Source: an uncultured Bacteroidales bacterium (GTDB lineage: Bacteria; Bacteroidota; Bacteroidia; Bacteroidales; F082). Taken from it: a stretch of DNA of 9,846 nucleotides. Below are positions 1,800-9,785 of this stretch, in pieces (position 1 is the stretch's first letter; each line of letters opens with the position of its first letter). The notes under the pieces were generated by a model. The model ran no database searches, was not told where the DNA came from, and saw only the letters and a program-made list of their open reading frames with translations. The translations under genes were made by a program, and so were the position numbers. Location: contig CAMKAR010000058.1 of assembly GCA_946410535.1 (NCBI GenBank), forward strand, positions 1 through 9,846. Reading direction: 5' to 3'.

Positions 1800-1835
1800 G
1801 AGTGGAAAAAAACGAAAAAAATCCGTAAAAAAGGC

Positions 1836-1863
1836 TTTGGTTTCCAAAATCTTTGTATTTTTG
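1836..1863 (+). promoter_or_regulatory. Candidate promoter of the structured leader and SHOCT operon
   Basis: TATTTTTG at 1856-1863 matches TAnnTTTG exactly. A TTTG at 1836-1839 could act as the -33 element, although the 16-bp spacer is shorter than the usual 19-21. Transcription would start around 1866-1870, just at the GGCTGATT arm of the stem described below. No better promoter was found before the zinc-ribbon gene at 2159, so this is the likely start of both the structured RNA and, by read-through, the three-gene operon. The leader would then be about 290 nt. Confidence 0.5.
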
Positions 1864-2067
1864 TGGCTGATTGCTCGGGGAAAAAATCCGGGCAGTTGAA
1901 GGCAATTTGTGCTTGTATCCGATTGACAAAATCTGGAAAATTTTGAAGTGGATATAAGATACGAATCAGCCAGTCTTATTTGTATTCATCAGTTATTATG
2001 TGATACATATAGGCTGGGAAAACGTATCTATTTTACTTCAAAGGTGTTTTCCAGAGCCTGTCAATCG
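1864..2067 (+). ncRNA. Candidate structured RNA with a 148-nt rod-like hairpin
   Basis: Bases 1920-2067 fold on themselves in an orderly series of perfect helices: 1920-1928 with 2059-2067 (9 bp), 1932-1940 with 2047-2055 (9 bp), 1942-1949 with 2035-2042 (8 bp), 1957-1963 with 2023-2029 (7 bp), 1967-1971 with 2012-2016 (5 bp), and 1981-1988 with 2001-2007 (7 bp with a bulged T at 1986). Small internal loops separate them and a 12-nt apical loop closes the end. A second perfect 9-bp stem, 1864-1872 with 1964-1972, uses one of the same strands and so competes. A small hairpin (TGCTCGG / CCGGGCA, 1872-1878 with 1888-1894) lies near the 5' end. A promoter box ends at 1863. The shape recalls 6S-type rods or a long 5' regulatory leader, but I cannot assign a family. 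The 3' end is undefined because no terminator is visible before 2159. A folded DNA element such as a MITE is the main alternative. Confidence 0.5.
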
Positions 2068-2158
2068 AAATAGGTGCATTTCAAGTTTCCTAGCCTTCTT
2101 GTGTGTAGTTGTGCCGAATCGGGGGAGCTATAGGCTTAATAATTTAAATCGATAAATT

Positions 2159-2275
2159 ATGGAAATTGAATGCCCAAGATGTGGAAGTGATGACTGCTAT
2201 CACAATGGCGTGTGCTATGAATGTAATGATTGTGGTTATAAATGGGGGGATGAAGATAGCCCTTTTGATGATTAA
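2159..2275 (+). CDS. 38-residue zinc-ribbon protein
   Basis: This small ORF encodes MEIECPRCGSDDCYHNGVCY, then ECNDCGYKWGDEDSPFDD. It has two CxxC knuckles, CPRC (residues 5-8) and CNDC (residues 22-25), spaced like a rubredoxin-type or PhnA/YjdM N-terminal zinc ribbon. A further Cys13 and Cys19 lie between them, and the tail is acidic. The GYKW after the second knuckle is typical of these ribbons. Zinc binding is inferred from the cysteines; the partner (nucleic acid or protein) is unknown. Upstream is AT-rich with no Shine-Dalgarno, as usual in this phylum. It is the first gene of a tight operon, 25 bp before the SHOCT membrane protein, and sits right after the structured leader. It is easily missed because of its size, but the intact ribbon and operon spacing argue it is real. 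Confidence 0.75.
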   Translation: MEIECPRCGSDDCYHNGVCYECNDCGYKWGDEDSPFDD

Positions 2276-2300
2276 AAATAGAAATTAAAATCAATTTATT

Positions 2301-2642
2301 ATGAGTAAAAAGGGAGTATTAACTTTAATTGGTGCAGTGGTAGGTTTTTTTGCCACATACCTACTTGTTGGATTGTTGGAAGGCGAAGACCCCGGAAGAA
2401 TAGAGGCGTTAGACCTTATTCTCTATCTACCTGGAGCAATTATTGGCGCAATTGTCGGCTTTGCAAGTGGAGGGAAAGAAAGTTCTTCCGAAAATGCTGA
2501 AAATCCCATAATCAAAGATAGAAAGCCTCAAGAGAAGACTGCGGTGTCCGAGTTGTTGGACTACAAAAAGCTTCATGATTCTGGGATTATTACCCAAGAG
2601 GAATTTGACAAAAAGAAGGAAGAACTTCTGAAACAACTATGA
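2301..2642 (+). CDS. Two-TM SHOCT-domain membrane protein
   Basis: This is a 113-residue protein with two hydrophobic segments (about residues 5-25 and 36-56) rich in Gly/Ala, a short charged loop between them, a polar linker, and a C-terminal SHOCT domain (about 83-112). The SHOCT signature is clear: LLDYKKLHDSGIITQEEFDK followed by KKEELL. SHOCT is a short helical module at protein ends, thought to mediate oligomerisation. The protein is probably an inner-membrane protein with the SHOCT end in the cytoplasm (inference). It is the second gene of the operon, with 25-bp gaps on both sides. The next gene carries its own SHOCT near the N-terminus, so the two may bind each other. There is no catalytic motif. 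Function unknown. Confidence 0.8.
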   Translation: MSKKGVLTLIGAVVGFFATYLLVGLLEGEDPGRIEALDLILYLPGAIIGAIVGFASGGKESSSENAENPIIKDRKPQEKTAVSELLDYKKLHDSGIITQEEFDKKKEELLKQL

Positions 2643-2667
2643 TACAAAACTATAAAAAAGATGTAGT

Positions 2668-4254
2668 ATGTCATCGGATACAGAAAAGACGACCATGCAA
2701 AGGTTGATGGAACTAAAAGATTTGTATGACTCCGGTTTGATCACTAAGGAGGAAATGGAGACCAAAAAACGGCAAATCCTTGGCACGGATAATCCTTCTG
2801 TCGATAATCCAAACGGAGAGATTAGGGACGAATTGAATAATGACGGCCATAATCAAGCGGATGATGATTATAGACCTGGCAAATGCTGTAGTTCTTCCAC
2901 TGATGAAGAAGGGAAACAAGCGGAATCCAATAGCGAGCAGGAAAATGAGCAAAATAAGGAAACTGATTCCAAGCCCAAAAACGATGGACGGAAAATATTC
3001 ATTCTATCTTTAATTGCAGCAGCGGTTGTTGTGGTAATTGTTGGGATGTCAATAGTATTGACCCCCACAGATTATAATAAGAAAGTGGCAAAAGCAATTG
3101 AGCAATACAAAACGCAAAACGCTACTATTCTGTCATCAAGCGGAACGAATGAGTCCACAAAAGATAACCATTATGTCATTTTCCAGAAAGGCGACACTAT
3201 CTATATTGATGAATTGGAACGCAAAACTCCAGTGAGAGCAATTCTCCCCAGAAAAGGCGGGTTTTTCATAAAAAGATTATTCCTGACTTTTGAAAATGAA
3301 AAACCCACTACGTCTTGTGAATTGGTGAATGAAGGGAAGAGGTCGAATTTGAAGATTAGGCCAATGCTGAAAGTACAAAACGCCTATGAAGGGGAACGGG
3401 CTATTTGTTTAAAGGAAATGGAAGATGGCTATGCTTCCCATAGTTATTACTACAATATGAATAACCCAGATACGATTTATATGGTAAACGGCGAGTTTGT
3501 TGAAAGAAACGGCTTTGTGTCGGCTGAACAGTACTTTTCTTTTGGAGAATTGGAATATGTACCGGGTTGGTGGGAGTATTCCCTTTATGATTATATATTT
3601 GAATTGTCTTCATATTATAACATCGATGATATGAGATTCCATCATTTTGGAGAGTATTGTAGATTTGAGAAAGATAATTATCCGATGGACTTGCTGACAA
3701 AAGAGTTTAGTGATCAGAACTTTGATTATGGGTTCCCGTCAAAATGGTTTGGCACTTCAAATATGGATAAGTTTATAAGTTGCCTGAAATGGGATGCTGA
3801 CAAAAAAACCAACCAAGCCAATTTGAATCGGGTTTTAAGCCAGACAATAGATTTTGACGATATGTGTCACGAGTTCAATACCAATCCAGTTAATGCTGCT
3901 CGGTTATACCCAGTTGGCAAACGAATGTATCTTGCTGCAAGAGTTAACAAGATTGACTATTCTCAACGTAAAGAATACAAATACATACTGTTTTCAACAA
4001 GAGACGATGATAATTGTTACATACATACCAATGATGAAAGATTCGCAAGTATCAATTATCCTACAACTGTTTTGGTCGAAGTAGAGTTTGAAGATAGATT
4101 TAGGCATGAAGGTCAGGATTTAATGCAGGCGTTTTTTGGGGAACTGTTTGATATGTTTGATTACCAAATCAAATACATTTTTAAAGATGCTGAACTGATC
4201 TCTTACGAGGGTTACAATGGTAACGAAAATTATTACGAAGAGGAAGATTATTAG
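2668..4254 (+). CDS. SHOCT-TM protein with large extracytoplasmic region; ends at an in-frame TAG
   Basis: The protein has 528 residues. In order it shows an N-terminal SHOCT domain (about 10-40, LMELKDLYDSGLITKEEM), a long polar acidic linker, one strong TM helix (about 109-131, IFILSLIAAAVVVVIVG), and a large region presumably outside the inner membrane. Its last part (about 400-515) starts with EFNTNPVNAARLYPVGKR and resembles the OB-fold tRNA_anti-like family, usually written as FxxNxxxAxxxYxGK; this is a medium-strength match by eye. The end, NYYEEEDY, is followed by TAG 4252-4254. The same frame then stays open for 81 codons encoding an SH3-like domain, so the ancestral product was probably about 610 residues. 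It is the last gene of the zinc-ribbon/SHOCT operon, 25 bp after its neighbour, and AT-rich like it. It is either a truncated but stable protein, a read-through product, or a recent pseudogene. Function unknown; the layout suggests envelope sensing or scaffolding. Confidence 0.8.
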   Translation: MSSDTEKTTMQRLMELKDLYDSGLITKEEMETKKRQILGTDNPSVDNPNGEIRDELNNDGHNQADDDYRPGKCCSSSTDEEGKQAESNSEQENEQNKETDSKPKNDGRKIFILSLIAAAVVVVIVGMSIVLTPTDYNKKVAKAIEQYKTQNATILSSSGTNESTKDNHYVIFQKGDTIYIDELERKTPVRAILPRKGGFFIKRLFLTFENEKPTTSCELVNEGKRSNLKIRPMLKVQNAYEGERAICLKEMEDGYASHSYYYNMNNPDTIYMVNGEFVERNGFVSAEQYFSFGELEYVPGWWEYSLYDYIFELSSYYNIDDMRFHHFGEYCRFEKDNYPMDLLTKEFSDQNFDYGFPSKWFGTSNMDKFISCLKWDADKKTNQANLNRVLSQTIDFDDMCHEFNTNPVNAARLYPVGKRMYLAARVNKIDYSQRKEYKYILFSTRDDDNCYIHTNDERFASINYPTTVLVEVEFEDRFRHEGQDLMQAFFGELFDMFDYQIKYIFKDAELISYEGYNGNENYYEEEDY

Positions 4255-4500
4255 GAAAAAAAAGGTTTTCAACAAAGCGATGGCGGTGTAAGCCAATTTG
4301 TTGTCATAGACGGTTCGCAATTACGCCTGCGCTTGGGTCCTTCAACAAGTTCAGATACCTTCAAATGGCCCGATGGCACAAAACGCCATCCTAATGTTGG
4401 TGACAAATATAGATACCTTGGCGAGTCGGGCGATTTTTACAAGATTGACTTTAATGGCAAAGAATTGTGGGTGTCGAAACAATATACGCATTTGGAATAA
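4255..4500 (+). pseudogene. SH3-like C-terminal segment separated by an in-frame TAG
   Basis: Directly after TAG 4252-4254, in the same frame, 81 sense codons run to TAA 4498-4500. The translation starts EKKGFQQSDGGVSQFVVIDG and continues with SQLRLRLGPSTSSDTFKW, then GDKYRYLGESGDFYKIDF and NGKELWVSKQYTHLE. LRLRLGPS near the start, YLGESGDFYKI and LWVS near the end are hallmarks of bacterial SH3 (SH3b-type) domains, which bind cell-wall peptides or proteins. There is no ATG in this frame within the segment, so independent translation is unlikely. A tract of eight A's follows the TAG, but no frameshift is needed to join the parts. One substitution (for example GAG, CAG or AAG to TAG) would explain the break. 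The conserved reading frame shows the stop is recent or is read through. Confidence 0.75.
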
Positions 4501-4519
4501 TAGAATAGTGTAGTATGGG

Positions 4520-4547
4520 AAAAACCGCCAGCAATGTTGTTTTTTTC
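4520..4547 (+). terminator. Weak terminator candidate after the SHOCT/SH3 operon
   Basis: AAAAAC (4520-4525) can pair with GTTTTT (4539-4544), followed directly by more T's and a TTTTTTC run. The stem is only 6 AT-rich base pairs, so this is a weak candidate. No better terminator was seen between the operon end at 4500 and the next promoter at 4644. Confidence 0.22.
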
Positions 4548-4643
4548 ATGCACTTTTTTGCTAATTCACACCTATAGCGACCCAAAAATCTTTGAGAGTG
4601 CGCGGGAATAAAGGCCTTTTTCCAACTTTTTTGCTCAAAAACC

Positions 4644-4674
4644 TTGTGGGTATAAATTTTTATACCTATCTTTG
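4644..4674 (+). promoter_or_regulatory. Promoter of the DUF2442-HTH gene
   Basis: The -33 element TTG (4644-4646) and the -7 element TATCTTTG (4667-4674, exact TAnnTTTG) are separated by 20 bp, the preferred Bacteroidota spacing. Transcription would start near 4678-4681, at or next to the ATG at 4680, so the mRNA should be leaderless or nearly so. No Shine-Dalgarno is present, in agreement. This is the best-formed promoter in the window. Confidence 0.7.
4649..4666. promoter_or_regulatory. Perfect palindrome between promoter boxes, likely operator
   Basis: GGTATAAA-TT-TTTATACC is a perfect inverted repeat with 8-bp arms. It fills almost exactly the spacer between the -33 and -7 boxes. A dimeric DNA-binding protein sitting here would block RNA polymerase. 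The gene just downstream encodes a protein with a C-terminal helix-turn-helix, so autorepression is the simple reading. The link between this protein and this site is inference. Confidence 0.6.
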
Positions 4675-4679
4675 CCAAT

Positions 4680-5096
4680 ATGGAAAAGATAAAGAACATC
4701 TGGTTTGACGAAAAGAGAATCTACTTGAAAACGACCGAAGGCCGGGTTTTGAGTCGCCCGTTGGAGGCTTATCCTGAACTGAAGGAGGCTACTATGGAAC
4801 AACGAAACGATATTGTCATCGATGAGGAAGGCACATCTATCCGATGGGAGGCTTTGGATGCCGATATGCACATTTCGAGCTTTTACGAGACGAGCGAACC
4901 CAATAGCCAAAACGAAGTGGCGGCCATGTTCAAGCGTTTCCCTTGGCTCAACGTGTCGGAAGTGGCACATGCCATTGGCATCAACAAAAGCCTGTTGGCG
5001 CGTTACATCTATGGCATTTCAAAGCCGAGCGAGCAACGCCTGCTGCAAATCCGCCGCACCTTGCATGCCCTTGGAACAGAGTTGCAAAGTGCATGA
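4680..5096 (+). CDS. DUF2442 domain protein with C-terminal HTH (antitoxin-like regulator)
   Basis: This is a 138-residue protein. Residues 1 to about 70 match DUF2442: IKNIWFDEKRIYLKTTEGRV, then PLEAYPELKEAT, EQRNDIVIDEEGTSIRWEAL and DADMHISSF. Residues about 78-135 form an XRE-like helix-turn-helix, with FPWLNVSEVAHAIGINKSLL followed by ARYIYGISKPSEQRLLQIRR, where the SxxxxRYxxGxxxPS pattern is the recognition helix and turn typical of such repressors. DUF2442 proteins often act as the antitoxin-like partner of DUF4160 proteins. No DUF4160 ORF is found upstream or downstream here, so this copy is an orphan or acts as a plain regulator. The start at 4680 is supported by the promoter ending at 4674 and by the domain beginning at residue 1-3. 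The operator-like palindrome in its promoter suggests autoregulation. A frame-shifted ORF at 4813-5250 is a shadow. Confidence 0.85.
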   Translation: MEKIKNIWFDEKRIYLKTTEGRVLSRPLEAYPELKEATMEQRNDIVIDEEGTSIRWEALDADMHISSFYETSEPNSQNEVAAMFKRFPWLNVSEVAHAIGINKSLLARYIYGISKPSEQRLLQIRRTLHALGTELQSA

Positions 5097-5309: not shown

Positions 5310-7811
5310 ATGAGCAGAAATATCTTAGTTTTGTTGGCATTCCTCATGAGTGCCCAATGGGCTTCAGCCGTCACGGTGAAGGGCCGCGTCGTAGATAAAT
5401 CCAATGGCGCCCCGATGGAGTATGCCACCGTCAGGGCGAGTGCCTTGCCCGATTCCACTTTCGTGGCTGGCGTCATCACCGACCCGAGCGGACATTTTAC
5501 GCTTGAACTGGACAAAGGCCGCTATGTGCTTGAGGTTCAGTATATGGGCTTCATCCCGCTGTATAAAAACGTCGCGATTGACGGCACGAAGACCACAGTC
5601 GAAGTGGGGCGCCTCAGTCTCGAACCTGATGCGCGTATGTTGAACGAAGTCAACGTGGTGGCCGAACAGAGCACCTACGAGATGACCCTCGACAAGCGCG
5701 TCTTCAACGTGGGCAAGGACGTGGGCAACACCGCCGGCAACGCCATCGAGGTGTTAGAGAACATCCCCGCCGTGTCGGTCGACGTGGAGGGCAATGTCAG
5801 TTTGCGTGGCGACGATGGCGTGCGCATCCTCATCGACGGCAAGGAGTCGGGCCTCTCGGGCATGAGCACACAGGACGCGCTGCGTACCTTGCAGGGCGAC
5901 ATGATTGAGCGCGTGGAGGTCATCACCAACCCTTCGGTGCGCTACGATGCCGAAGGCTCGGCGGGCATCATCAACATCATCCTGAAAAAGGACAAACGCC
6001 AGGGCTTCAACGGCGCGGTGAACGTTCGCGGCGGCTATCCGTGGCAATACGGTGCGAGCCTGACGGCCAACTACCGCCTCAAACGTTGGAATCTTTTCGC
6101 CAGCTATGGCTTCAACAACCGCTCCAACATCGGCGGCGGCGTGAACCAAACCAAGCGTTTTGACATTTTTGACCACGACACGATCATGGGCGGGACTCTC
6201 TTCCCTGCGGGCGACACCATCTTCAACCAGCTCACCGACCAGACCACCGAGCGCCGAATGCGCCGCATGGGACACAACGTGCGCGTGGGTGCCGATTATT
6301 ACATCACTGACAATGACATCGTTAGCGCGGCTTTCGTCTACCGTTTCGGGCGTTTGGAGACGCATCCCATAGTGAAATATTACGATGAGTATCCGTTGCT
6401 TGGCACTTCGTCCTACGACGAGCGTGCCGAGGACTACTTGGAAACCGATCCCATGTATGAGGTCACTTTGGACTACGACAAGAAGTTTGTGCGCGAAGGT
6501 CGCAGCCTGAAGGCCAACGTGCGTTTCTTCACCAATGCGGAGAACGCCAGCTCGGATATCACGGAGACCATGTACCCCAACAAGGACATGGAATCTGCCC
6601 TTTGGACGATTTACCAAAAGACGAGCAACGACCAGCGTATGCGCAACTTGCAGGCCAGCATCGACTATGTGCATCCTTTCCTCACCAAGGCGCAATGGGA
6701 GATTGGCGGGAAATATACCAACCGCAACATCCTGAGCAACGACAGCGTGTGGGAAATGAATGAAGGGAATTGGGCTCCCTTGACCAACTATTGCTACGAC
6801 TACGAATACATCGAGCAGGTGGCCGCGCTCTACACCAGCCTCGGCAACGACTGGGGCCGTTGGTCGGGACAAATCGGCGTGCGGGCCGAGATGACCAACA
6901 TCATGACGAACCTGAAGGGCTATGCCCACGACGGCACCGACTCCATCAACGGGGGAAAGCCCTATTTCGACTTCTTCCCGAGCGCACACTTGAATTATTC
7001 GGTAAACGAGTATAACCAGTTCCAGGTGAGCTACACGCGCCGCATCCGTCGTCCGGGCTTCTGGCAGATGAGTCCGTTCCGATCCTATAACGACAACCGT
7101 AACATTCGCATGGGCAATCCGGCCCTGAAGCCGACTTACATGGACAGCTACGAACTCGGCTACATCCATTTTTGGGACAAGGCCAGCTTCAACTTCACGG
7201 CTTATTACCGTCATGGCAACAACATGATACGCAACTATACCTATGAGGATAACGGTGTGTTTTACAGTATGCCTGTCAACTTCGGAAAGGCCGACGACTT
7301 TGGCATTGAAGCCGTGGCACAAGGCCAGATGACGAAATGGTGGAACCTGAATGGCAACGTCAACTTCTTCCGTTCTTACACCAGAGGTTACATCGAGGAG
7401 CAGTATTACGAAACCGAGAGTTGGATGCTCTTTGGGCGTATGGTTTCCAAGTTCAAGATAAGCAATTGGTTCGACTTGCAGCTGACGGCCCACGTCATGG
7501 GTCCGCACAAGGAGCCACTCGGTATGCGCGACGGCAACTGGTGGATGGACCTCGCCGTGAGCAAGGAAATTTTGCATGGCAACGGCACCATCACCTTCAA
7601 CGTGCGCGACTTGTTCAACTCACGTAGCATGGGTGGTGAGTCGTGGGGCGACGGATTCTGGCAATACAGCACCAGCACTTGGAACCGCCGTTCGTTCTCG
7701 CTCAACTTCAACTACCGCATCAACCAGCAGAACATCAAACGTAACCGCCCGGATGGCGACGAAGGCGGTGACGATGGTGGCGGCGAAGAGCAATCCGAAG
7801 AAGGGTATTAA
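5310..7811 (+). CDS. TonB-dependent outer-membrane receptor, OMP_b-brl_3 type
   Basis: This is an 833-residue outer-membrane protein. It has a signal peptide (about residues 1-20, cut after WASA), a carboxypeptidase-regulatory-like beta-sandwich (about 22-105, GRVVDKSNGAPMEYATV ... GFIPLY), a TonB-box-like LNEVNVVAE stretch, and a plug domain (about 120-230) with IPAVSVDVEGNVSLRGDDGV, RILIDGKES and YDAEGSAGIINIILKK. A long beta-barrel with many aromatic girdle residues and the family's YTRRIRRPGFWQMSPF motif follows. This is the architecture of the Bacteroidota outer membrane beta-barrel family that imports or senses substrates using TonB energy. Without an adjacent SusD-like gene it is not a SusCD glycan pair, and the substrate is unknown. 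The last roughly 25 residues, after the expected barrel end, are an unusual Asp/Glu/Gly-rich tail. It is GC-richer than the upstream genes. It has its own promoter box and ends in a strong terminator, so it is probably monocistronic. Confidence 0.92.
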   Translation: MSRNILVLLAFLMSAQWASAVTVKGRVVDKSNGAPMEYATVRASALPDSTFVAGVITDPSGHFTLELDKGRYVLEVQYMGFIPLYKNVAIDGTKTTVEVGRLSLEPDARMLNEVNVVAEQSTYEMTLDKRVFNVGKDVGNTAGNAIEVLENIPAVSVDVEGNVSLRGDDGVRILIDGKESGLSGMSTQDALRTLQGDMIERVEVITNPSVRYDAEGSAGIINIILKKDKRQGFNGAVNVRGGYPWQYGASLTANYRLKRWNLFASYGFNNRSNIGGGVNQTKRFDIFDHDTIMGGTLFPAGDTIFNQLTDQTTERRMRRMGHNVRVGADYYITDNDIVSAAFVYRFGRLETHPIVKYYDEYPLLGTSSYDERAEDYLETDPMYEVTLDYDKKFVREGRSLKANVRFFTNAENASSDITETMYPNKDMESALWTIYQKTSNDQRMRNLQASIDYVHPFLTKAQWEIGGKYTNRNILSNDSVWEMNEGNWAPLTNYCYDYEYIEQVAALYTSLGNDWGRWSGQIGVRAEMTNIMTNLKGYAHDGTDSINGGKPYFDFFPSAHLNYSVNEYNQFQVSYTRRIRRPGFWQMSPFRSYNDNRNIRMGNPALKPTYMDSYELGYIHFWDKASFNFTAYYRHGNNMIRNYTYEDNGVFYSMPVNFGKADDFGIEAVAQGQMTKWWNLNGNVNFFRSYTRGYIEEQYYETESWMLFGRMVSKFKISNWFDLQLTAHVMGPHKEPLGMRDGNWWMDLAVSKEILHGNGTITFNVRDLFNSRSMGGESWGDGFWQYSTSTWNRRSFSLNFNYRINQQNIKRNRPDGDEGGDDGGGEEQSEEGY

Positions 7812-7862: not shown

Positions 7863-8741
7863 TTACATCACGGTTACGCGCTTCACGCTGACACCGTTTT
7901 CAGTAGCCACGCGCACCACGTAGACACCAGCTTGGTATTGGCTCATGTCGAGCGTTTCCAAGTGGCTGCTGGCGGGGGCGTCATATACCATTTGGCCGAG
8001 GCCGTTGAACACGCTGATGTGGTTCATGCCAGTGGCGCTCACGGTCACGTTGCCAGTGGTGGGGTTGGGGTAGATGGCGACTTCGTCGGCGTTTTCGCCA
8101 ATCATGTCGTAGCCGTCGGCGTAAGCCCAAACGAGCCAGCTGTAGCCTTCGCCGCCCACGGTGGCGAGGTCCATCCAGCCGTAGCCATCAACGGCGATCC
8201 AGCGGTTGTTGGGGTCGCCCATGTCGCCCATGGCAGGAGCGGGATACTCGAGCGAGCCGTCTTGGTAGAACATCACCCACAGGTTTTGCGTGCCGTCGAT
8301 GCCGATGGGGGTGTTGAGCGGATACTCGACAATGCTGCCTTGGGTTCCGCTGACGTGGAACGGCTCTTGGCAGACCATGGTTTCGCCTTGGGTTTCGCCG
8401 CCGAGGTAGATGCGCACTTCATAGTCGCCTTCGTAAGCGGGGTCGCCCGAATCGACGAAAGCGAAGCTGGTGATGGTGGCGCCGGCAAACTCAGTCAACA
8501 TGGAGGCAGGAAACATGGAACCCCATGAGAAGCCCATGCCGATGCCCACAGCGGTGATTTCGGTCAGCTCTTCGGGAGCGTAGGTGAGCCAAACGCCGTC
8601 GGTGGTGGCACGGTTGGCAGCAACCATCGAAACGAAATCGGGAGCCGTCTTCACGGTGATTCCCTCAACATTGTTCTGTGCTTGCACACCCATGACGGAG
8701 AGGCAGCACACCATCATCAATGAAAGTAAGTTTTTCTTCAT
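7863..8741 (-). CDS. Secreted protein with T9SS type A sorting domain (paralogue 1)
   Basis: The protein has 292 residues. A Sec signal peptide covers about residues 1-21 (MKKNLLSLMM ... GVQA, then QNN). A beta-rich passenger domain follows, with GIGMGFSWGSMFPASMLTEF, YEVRIYLGG, QNLWVMFYQDGS and MGDPNNRWIAVDGYGWMDLA. The layout (YEVRIY ... IDGTQNLWV ... GWMDL ... SWLVWAY) resembles beta-sandwich modules seen in gingipain-like and other Bacteroidota adhesins; this is inference. Residues about 221-292 are a type A T9SS sorting domain: YPNPTTGNV, NGLGQMVYD, LDMSQYQAGVYVVRV and the ending KRVTVM. T9SS moves such cargo across the outer membrane, after which the sorting domain is cleaved and the protein is released or attached to the surface. 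It is a close paralogue of 8925-9785. ATG 8741 begins the signal peptide. A promoter box lies at 8810-8817. Confidence 0.88.
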   Translation of the reverse strand: MKKNLLSLMMVCCLSVMGVQAQNNVEGITVKTAPDFVSMVAANRATTDGVWLTYAPEELTEITAVGIGMGFSWGSMFPASMLTEFAGATITSFAFVDSGDPAYEGDYEVRIYLGGETQGETMVCQEPFHVSGTQGSIVEYPLNTPIGIDGTQNLWVMFYQDGSLEYPAPAMGDMGDPNNRWIAVDGYGWMDLATVGGEGYSWLVWAYADGYDMIGENADEVAIYPNPTTGNVTVSATGMNHISVFNGLGQMVYDAPASSHLETLDMSQYQAGVYVVRVATENGVSVKRVTVM

Positions 8742-8924: not shown

Positions 8925-9785
8925 TTACATCACGGTAACGCGCTTGGTGCTGATGCCCTTCTCGGAAGCCACGCGCACCATGTAGACGCCAGCTTGGTAT
9001 TGGCTCATGTCCAAAACCTGGCTGTCGTTGCTGACGGGCATGTCCATCACCATCTGTCCCATGGCATTGAACACAGTGATGTGGTTCATGCCGGGGGCGG
9101 CCACGGTCACGTTGCTCGTGGTGGGGTTGGGATACACGGCTATGTTGCTGTCGAACTCGCCGATGGCGTCGTAGTCGTCGGCGAAGGCCCACAAGGCGAA
9201 GCTGTAGCCGGCACCGCCTTGCACCGAAGCCATATCCATCCAGCCGTAGCCATCAACGCCGATCCAGCGGCTGTTGGGGTCGCCCATGTCGGTGATGACG
9301 CAAGCGGCTTGTTGCACCGATCCGTCTTGATAGAAGGTCACCCACAGGTTCTGTGAGCCGTCGATGAGTGCGGGTTGGTCGAGCGGAAGCGGGACGATGT
9401 TGTTGACCGTTCCGGAGATGGTGAAGGCTTGGCGGGCGATTTCCGTTGCGGGAGCCGTGTCGCCACCTTGCCAGATGTGCACTTCGTAATCGCCAGCGGA
9501 GTTGGTGTAGTCCACATAGGCGACCTGGGTCAAATACTTGCCATCGTATTCGGCAATCATCTCGGCGGGGAACATGTAGCCCCAGCTGAAGGCCATGCCG
9601 ATGGAGAGGAATCCGGCAGGTGTCATGGGCTCGGGAGCATAGGTCAGTACGACGGGAACTCTTAGGTCTGAAATGGTAGCGTTGACGTCAGTGTTGACCG
9701 TCACTTTGATTTCTTCTTGTGCCTTGGCCACGCCCACGAAGGCGAAGCAGGCTAACAGCATCAATGAGAATACATTTTTCTTCAT
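8925..9785 (-). CDS. Secreted protein with T9SS type A sorting domain (paralogue 2)
   Basis: The protein has 286 residues with the same plan as its neighbour at 7863-8741. It has a signal peptide (about 1-22, MKKNVFSLMLL ... GVAKA), a beta-rich passenger with SIGMAFSWGYMFPAEMIAEY, YEVHIWQGG, QNLWVTFYQDGS and MGDPNSRWIGVDGYGWMDMA, and a type A sorting domain (about 215-286) with YPNPTTSNV, DMSQYQAGVYMVRV and KRVTVM. By hand alignment the two sorting domains agree at about 51 of 72 positions without gaps, and the passenger motifs align throughout, so the pair arose by tandem duplication. The passengers differ most just after the signal peptide and in the loop after FYQDGS, which may reflect different ligands. 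It is expected at the cell surface or secreted. No TAnnTTTG box is visible in the 61 bp upstream that remain in the window, so its promoter is probably outside. Confidence 0.88.
   Translation of the reverse strand: MKKNVFSLMLLACFAFVGVAKAQEEIKVTVNTDVNATISDLRVPVVLTYAPEPMTPAGFLSIGMAFSWGYMFPAEMIAEYDGKYLTQVAYVDYTNSAGDYEVHIWQGGDTAPATEIARQAFTISGTVNNIVPLPLDQPALIDGSQNLWVTFYQDGSVQQAACVITDMGDPNSRWIGVDGYGWMDMASVQGGAGYSFALWAFADDYDAIGEFDSNIAVYPNPTTSNVTVAAPGMNHITVFNAMGQMVMDMPVSNDSQVLDMSQYQAGVYMVRVASEKGISTKRVTVM

Follow-up and report, generated by a model that had tools for sequence, protein, structure and literature searches.

A recent nonsense codon in a flexible linker has probably switched off the optional SH3 tail of a gene whose body is still complete. 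The gene lies on the + strand of the window, by which we mean the whole stretch of 9,846 nucleotides that was analysed. It contains an in-frame TAG where intact relatives have a sense codon, its tail is a module carried by unrelated bodies, and other relatives of the body have no tail. In the mechanism that we propose, a nonsense codon would have arisen recently in the linker between a membrane-anchored body and an optional SH3 domain. The body, which comprises a putative SHOCT motif, one predicted transmembrane (TM) helix and two further domains, one beta-rich and one OB-like, would still be made whole, and the tail would no longer be translated to any useful degree. This loss would be tolerated because the module has been shuffled over many unrelated bodies and many relatives of the body do without it. 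We infer that the tail goes untranslated and that its loss is nearly neutral.

The interrupted gene and its relatives

An ATG-started ORF of 528 aa occupies 2668-4254 (+) and is closed by TAG at 4252-4254. Beyond this stop the frame is open for another 81 codons (4255-4497), up to TAA at 4498-4500. The 81-residue tail matches the Pfam family SH3_3 (PF08239) with E 5.1e-8 and 33.4 bits, above the curated cut-off of 27, and the body matches the 28-residue SHOCT motif (PF09851) with E 3.7e-6 and 26.9 bits, just missing the curated cut-off of 27. The ORFs and Pfam matches thus bear out what a sequence-only reading had described, namely a SHOCT-TM ORF of 528 residues ended by TAG, with a frame that continues through an SH3 domain to the TAA. 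The segment from 4255 to 4500 (+) therefore contains the remainder of the linker and the SH3_3 tail. Chance can be excluded as the origin of this open frame because 11 of the 21 relatives of the body have body and tail fused.

The domain description of the body rests on Pfam, on the relatives, and on an AF2 model of one intact relative, P0004, which was also submitted to Foldseek. The model has a mean pLDDT of 68 and a pTM of 0.54. It starts with helices at the N-terminus and continues with a helix at 108-131, which we regard as the TM segment. A beta-rich domain comes next, and then a C-terminal OB-like domain that ends near residue 514. The body thus ends before the linker, for which the confidence is very low, and the model of the SH3 is poor. 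Foldseek returned nothing for this model at E 0.001 or better (best E 1.7e-3). The OB-like label is applied to the end of the body because the weak Foldseek matches include tRNA-synthetase OB domains, along with the lipoprotein 3f1z, and because the body has a sub-threshold match to Pfam tRNA_anti-like. Taken together, the model suggests an inner-membrane protein with a sensor- or binding-like part in the periplasm. Given one predicted TM helix, the tail would face the periplasm as well and would add an end that binds the wall or the envelope.

The relatives were collected by a protein search with the joined translation, in which an X stood at the TAG, and this yielded 92 matches. Twenty-one of these (P0001-P0021) have the body in common. 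In 11 of the 21 (P0001-P0009, P0011 and P0012) the TAG column is occupied by a sense codon and the protein runs through to the SH3; the check on homologues suggested by the sequence-only reading therefore came out in favor of an interrupted gene. The residue at this column is identical in 10 of the 11, P0012 aligning with a different linker, and the recent nonsense mutation that had been listed as one option is in this respect well supported. The remaining 10 body relatives (P0010 and P0013-P0021) lack the SH3 and end near the linker. It had been said that the interpretation would fail if homologues were never followed by an SH3, and this is contradicted by the 11 fused proteins, although the SH3 is absent from 10 of the 21 relatives. 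One more protein, P0035, is a distant relative of the body. The other 70 matches cover just 11-27% of the query, and their printed ends show in most cases the SH3 on other bodies and in some cases further domains after the SH3.

The body is rare. A locus from a rumen Bacteroidia MAG (L001) has an intact gene with a sense codon, a similar small SHOCT-type gene before it and a similar gene order, and it is the single locus in the genome collection that carries the body. Among 173 genomes of the family there was one close match, in G001 (E 7e-272), besides a partial match in G141 (29%, E 1.9e-21) and two marginal ones; in a sample of 393 genomes of the order, searched at E 1e-8, G001 alone was found. 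A phage collection searched with window DNA from 1800 to 4700 gave no match, and viral contigs searched with the body alignment and with the tail yielded no relatives.

Comparison with individual alleles bears on the age of the stop. Over body residues 1-518 the window is identical to P0001 at 516 of 518 positions. In the linker, all 25 compared residues agree with P0004 and 17 of 25 with P0001, and the SH3 is closest to P0003 (64/66). The TAG column is occupied by a sense codon in both P0001 and P0004, the close alleles for body and linker, so that the stop is young. Judging from this pattern of matches, it would belong either to a recombinant allele or to a join made in assembly.

The second of these possibilities is part of a broader alternative, in which the TAG would be an error made in sequencing or assembly and might lie where two strain alleles were joined in a metagenome assembly. 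It is suggested by the change in best-matching allele from P0001 to P0004 and by further unusual changes in the tail and the terminator. The SH3 residue at position 572 is altered in the window and kept in 11/11 relatives, and that at 598 is altered and kept in 10/11. Beyond the gene, at 4503-4620 (+), is a 3' region common to other tail genes, 78% identical to the copy in L080, in which remnants of a terminator-like hairpin and of a double repeat of TTTGACAATGCGCA can be recognized. The window hairpin has a folding energy of -10.1 kcal/mol (z -1.0), compared with -19.6, -23.6 and -11.7 kcal/mol (z -5.8, -7.9 and -3.5) in three relatives. With the two changed SH3 residues, this weak hairpin gives the 3' end of the window an eroded look. 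The changes specific to the window lineage in the tail number three synonymous and three non-synonymous, which is too few to show relaxed selection on the tail. However, mosaic genes seem to be common in this family of genes, which weakens the case for an artificial join: synonymous divergence (dS) between the window and L001 varies along the gene from 0.15 in the SH3 to 1.52 at residues 401-520, swings that would fit frequent recombination. Moreover, stops in the linker are present in three other genomes. We consider an error unlikely and retain a recent nonsense codon as the preferred explanation.

A shuffled module and stops in its linkers

In the family of G001, the SH3 tail was found at 39 places in 30 of the 173 genomes (E 1e-8). 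Together with the window these make 40 places, distributed over 11 body families, which have no BLASTP similarity to one another at E 1e-4; some of the bodies are incomplete because the contig or the fetched stretch ends within them. The gene ends directly after the SH3 at 33 of the 39 places and runs on for 120 to 200 residues at 6. The tails of L001 and L007, which are attached to unrelated bodies, are 94.9% identical as DNA (dS 0.21), and these two loci also have in common the terminator hairpin and the double repeat that follow the gene. In older pairs of tails dS is high or saturated and dN is low, and the module is therefore normally under selection as a protein. The order-level sample of 393 contained the tail in four genomes: G001, G110 and G068, all members of the family set, and G382, with a distant copy outside the family (E 8.7e-15, about 47%).

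An in-frame stop in the linker was encountered at 4 of the 40 tail places. These are the TAG of the window, a TAA at the same site in G068 (L036) and G065 (L038), and a TAA in G110 (L037). When the stop common to G068 and G065 is counted once, there are three events in two body families. None of the 40 places has a stop inside the SH3. At 37 of the 40 the stop that opens the frame lies within the available DNA; no known homology crosses it, and no interruption of a body was seen. At the other three the DNA ends before such a stop is reached. P0074 represents the G110 gene in intact form, with 4 mismatches in 735 residues. The stop in G068 and G065 could instead be an old gene end, because P0110, P0111, P0115, L056 and L057 all end at this point. 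P0110 agrees with the G068 gene at every residue along its own length and has the same end point as the cut gene, P0111 and P0115 stop there as judged from the protein ends, and in L056 and L057 the last domain of the G068 gene is present and the gene ends with it. The 800 bases after the L056 and L057 gene ends contain no significant SH3 match. Sixteen short tail proteins were considered as proof of more linker stops, and we rejected them for this purpose, since several (P0093, P0096, P0099, P0101 and P0104) are pieces of fused proteins; many of the 16 are from contigs under 2 kb.

The placement of the stops may be compared with the opportunities for mutation. The L001 gene offers 246 single-base routes to a stop in the body, 18 in the linker and 31 in the SH3. 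The probability that three events would all fall in the linker is 2e-4 relative to the whole gene and 0.05, a marginal value, relative to linker and SH3 together. This placement fits selection for a whole body combined with tolerance of tail loss.

Recurrent stops that are followed by readable sequence raise the question of translation past them. According to Belinky et al. (2021, PMC7918605), in-frame stops are widespread in bacterial genes, many keep dN/dS below 1 and are argued not to be pseudogenes, and read-through is argued for many. If the stop in the window were leaky in this way, read-through would yield a longer product that includes the SH3, as a minor form. The frame is indeed open and the SH3 intact beyond all four linker stops, and there is a weak excess of synonymous differences past the common stop of G068 and G065. 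There the SH3 shows three synonymous differences and one non-synonymous difference (P about 0.04 under no constraint, uncorrected for testing), with one more non-synonymous difference in the linker, a weak hint that the cut-off tail may remain under constraint. Several observations argue the other way. The RNA after the TAG is no more stable than shuffled sequences (fold z 0.59), and in this respect nothing in the window positively supports the read-through proposed in the sequence-only reading. The contexts of the stops also differ (TAG-GAA in the window, TAA-AAC and TAA-AGC elsewhere); because both the stop and the codons after it vary, there is no common leaky context. A stop conserved among orthologues would be expected for read-through, but the orthologues that bear the SH3 have a sense codon, and the stop in G068 and G065 belongs to another gene. 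Finally, the closeness of the intact alleles fits a young stop rather than a conserved signal, TAG serves as the ordinary terminator of 3 of 39 sister genes, and the window tail and terminator look eroded. A leaky stop is in our estimation quite improbable.

A more specific form of this idea arises from the association of the tail with a conserved operon leader, which is described below. The tail is located within 9 kb of this leader in G058, G068, G001, G110 and the window. In G065 the operon of G068 seems to be divided between two contigs, with the leader preceding a similar first gene. Linker stops are present at 4 of the 6 leader-linked tail places and at 0 of the 34 others (post hoc Fisher test, P 0.0002). 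With G068 and G065 counted once P is 0.001, again post hoc and with relatedness uncontrolled, and contig ends may hide leaders. One might then regard the linker stops, met in three of the five leader-led operons with an SH3 tail, as a leaky on/off switch for the tail, an interpretation to which we assign a very low probability.

Lower still stands the possibility that the SH3 is an independent small gene, with translation restarting after the TAG. The sequence-only reading had reported no visible start, and this is correct for the stretch ahead of the SH3, which has no ATG, GTG or TTG. An in-frame TTG is nevertheless found at 4333, and would be the candidate start, but it is situated within the SH3 domain. 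The other linker stops likewise have no in-frame ATG, GTG or TTG before the SH3, and the short tail proteins that might have represented such genes include the fused-protein pieces and short contigs mentioned above.

It had further been remarked that no other gene of the window ends in TAG, and this holds for the seven that we checked, five of which end in TAA and two in TGA. That TAG has been reassigned to an amino acid in the host organism, the one reading that this would favor, is hardly credible, since TAG is the normal end of 3 of the 39 SH3-tail genes in related genomes (L032, L042 and L048), the remaining linker stops are TAA, no tRNA gene was found in the window, and Bacteroidetes are reported to use TAG about as often as TGA (mean TGA/TAG 0.899, PMC10471768). 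A recent nonsense codon thus remains the explanation that we favor.

The operon leader and the surrounding genes

An operon leader is located at 1845-2140 (+), upstream of the interrupted gene. DNA matches, an alignment and complementary arms identify it as a conserved element of about 290 nt that is probably a structured RNA, and we take its 5' edge to be a Bacteroidota-like promoter. From comparison of its copies we think it likely that this is an undescribed structured RNA, a 5' leader that acts in cis and has an identity stem specific to each copy, and that it stands before dozens of differing accessory operons. A DNA search with 1841-2139 located the leader at no fewer than 44 places in 34 of the 173 family genomes (E 1e-5); four candidates were scored per genome and this count is a lower bound. 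In an order sample of 334 genomes it was found in G001 and G110 only, both of the same family.

We aligned 31 copies, consisting of that in the window and 30 of the 44 places, fetched as loci L083-L112. The promoter-like edge is invariant and there are long invariant blocks. RNAalifold predicted 49 pairs from this alignment, 8 of them with double changes, and the contribution of covariation is small (-4.1 of -47.2 kcal/mol). The predicted structure does not contain the long-range stem because gaps introduced by MAFFT split the arms of the stem. When scored sequence by sequence, the arms are complementary in all 31 copies (at least 7 bp), with variable sequence: there are 22 distinct 5' arms and 24 distinct arm pairs. 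The mean stem length is 8.74 bp, compared with 4.53 bp when partners are shuffled and a maximum of 5.48 in 1000 shuffles, a procedure that ignores relatedness. Comparison with 4227 Rfam families gave no match at the gathering score anywhere in the window. Below that score, four matches to the leader with E values up to 5 resemble chance: rteR (19.4 bits, E 2.4, cut-off 72), MIR5638 (18.5 bits, E 0.0059, cut-off 500), nos_TCE and MIR8562. By comparison with Rfam the leader therefore looks undescribed. PMC2864571 lists other Bacteroidota motifs, some of which appear in its table without an Rfam number.

The 45 copies of the leader, including that of the window, precede largely different genes, and some gene sets recur. 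Sequence is present downstream of 44 copies, in several cases less than 3 kb, and in 33 of these 44 an ORF of at least 60 aa has its first ATG within 60 nt of the leader end. Six of 10 proteins picked from leader-led operons have no Pfam match at E 0.001. We considered that a constant leader and a constant tail might serve as recombination arms, and dropped this as a main reading because the SH3 tail occurs within 9 kb downstream of only 5 of the 45 copies.

On the + strand of the window the leader is followed by a 38-aa ORF, a 113-aa SHOCT gene, the TAG gene with its SH3 tail frame, a DUF2442-HTH gene and an 833-aa ORF. The 38-aa ORF (2159-2275, +) lies directly 3' of the leader and is the earliest ATG-started frame noticed there; its translation is cysteine-rich and by eye resembles a zinc ribbon. 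The 113-aa protein encoded just ahead of the TAG gene (2301-2642, +) matches Pfam SHOCT with E 1.9e-9 and 37.4 bits, and a similar protein occupies the same place in L001/G001. The DUF2442-HTH gene (4680-5096, +) matches Pfam DUF2442 with E 4.7e-16 and HTH_3 just under the cut-off, and it also follows the tail gene in G068 and G110. A similar gene recurs downstream of leader-led operons whose genes otherwise differ (L127, L135, L142, L144, L147 and L153), as if it marked one variable site. The 833-aa ORF (5310-7811, +) is presumably a TonB receptor. Upstream, on the opposite strand (353-1636, -), Pfam identifies an AAA_14/DUF4143 ATPase. Submission of eight proteins to PADLOC gave one strong match, that of this ATPase to the candidate family PDC-S01 (E 7.7e-122), and only weak matches for two others. 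At 7863-8741 and 8925-9785 (-) are tandem genes for secreted-looking proteins of 292 and 286 aa that appear alike by eye and are probably the result of a duplication.

The repeat TTTGACAATGCGCA has 52 exact sites in 22 of the 173 family genomes, compared with 3 for a reversed control. It is often paired, with the copies 34 bp apart. Copies are located at L001:7894-7941 and 9296-9343 and at G068:C10:70335-72426, and a degenerate copy is present at 4560-4620 of the window. In seven genomes there are copies separated by 1.37-1.45 kb, and in G001 and G068, the two that were read, they flank a gene that was labeled by eye as ATPase-like. The repeat may mark mobile units.

Significance and comparison with known systems

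The TAG, in a gut-type Bacteroidota bacterium, appears to be an everyday nonsense allele, the product of an unexceptional type of mutation. Three cut-offs in the linker of a shuffled C-terminal module are apparent, and this one offers a natural experiment on the need for the tail. The leader is the more novel result and deserves separate study. If confirmed, it could reveal how accessory genes are controlled in operons that differ from one another and are often unannotated, and specific predictions that can be tested follow from its variable stem.

The leader resembles the Bacteroidota RNAs in Rfam (Bacteroidales-1, Bacteroides-1, Bacteroid-trp, 6S-flavo and rteR) in being a structured RNA element, but it reaches the gathering score of none of them. 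The interrupted gene is similar to the prokaryotic in-frame stops described by Belinky et al. (2021, PMC7918605) in that a stop interrupts a conserved frame and the downstream sequence is readable. It differs from the cases presented there in that the stop is in a linker between domains, beside a shuffled module that many relatives lack, and in that the window exhibits no clear selection for read-through. As in the SHOCT proteins described by Eberhardt et al. (2013, PMC3581485), a short motif, here a putative SHOCT, is joined to other domains. That paper describes the motif as predominantly C-terminal, whereas here it is N-terminal and precedes the TM helix, the beta-rich domain and the OB-like domain. 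With SH3_3 (PF08239) the tail shares the profile match, and the close subfamily to which it belongs was found here in 30 of 173 genomes of one Bacteroidota family and among metagenome proteins.
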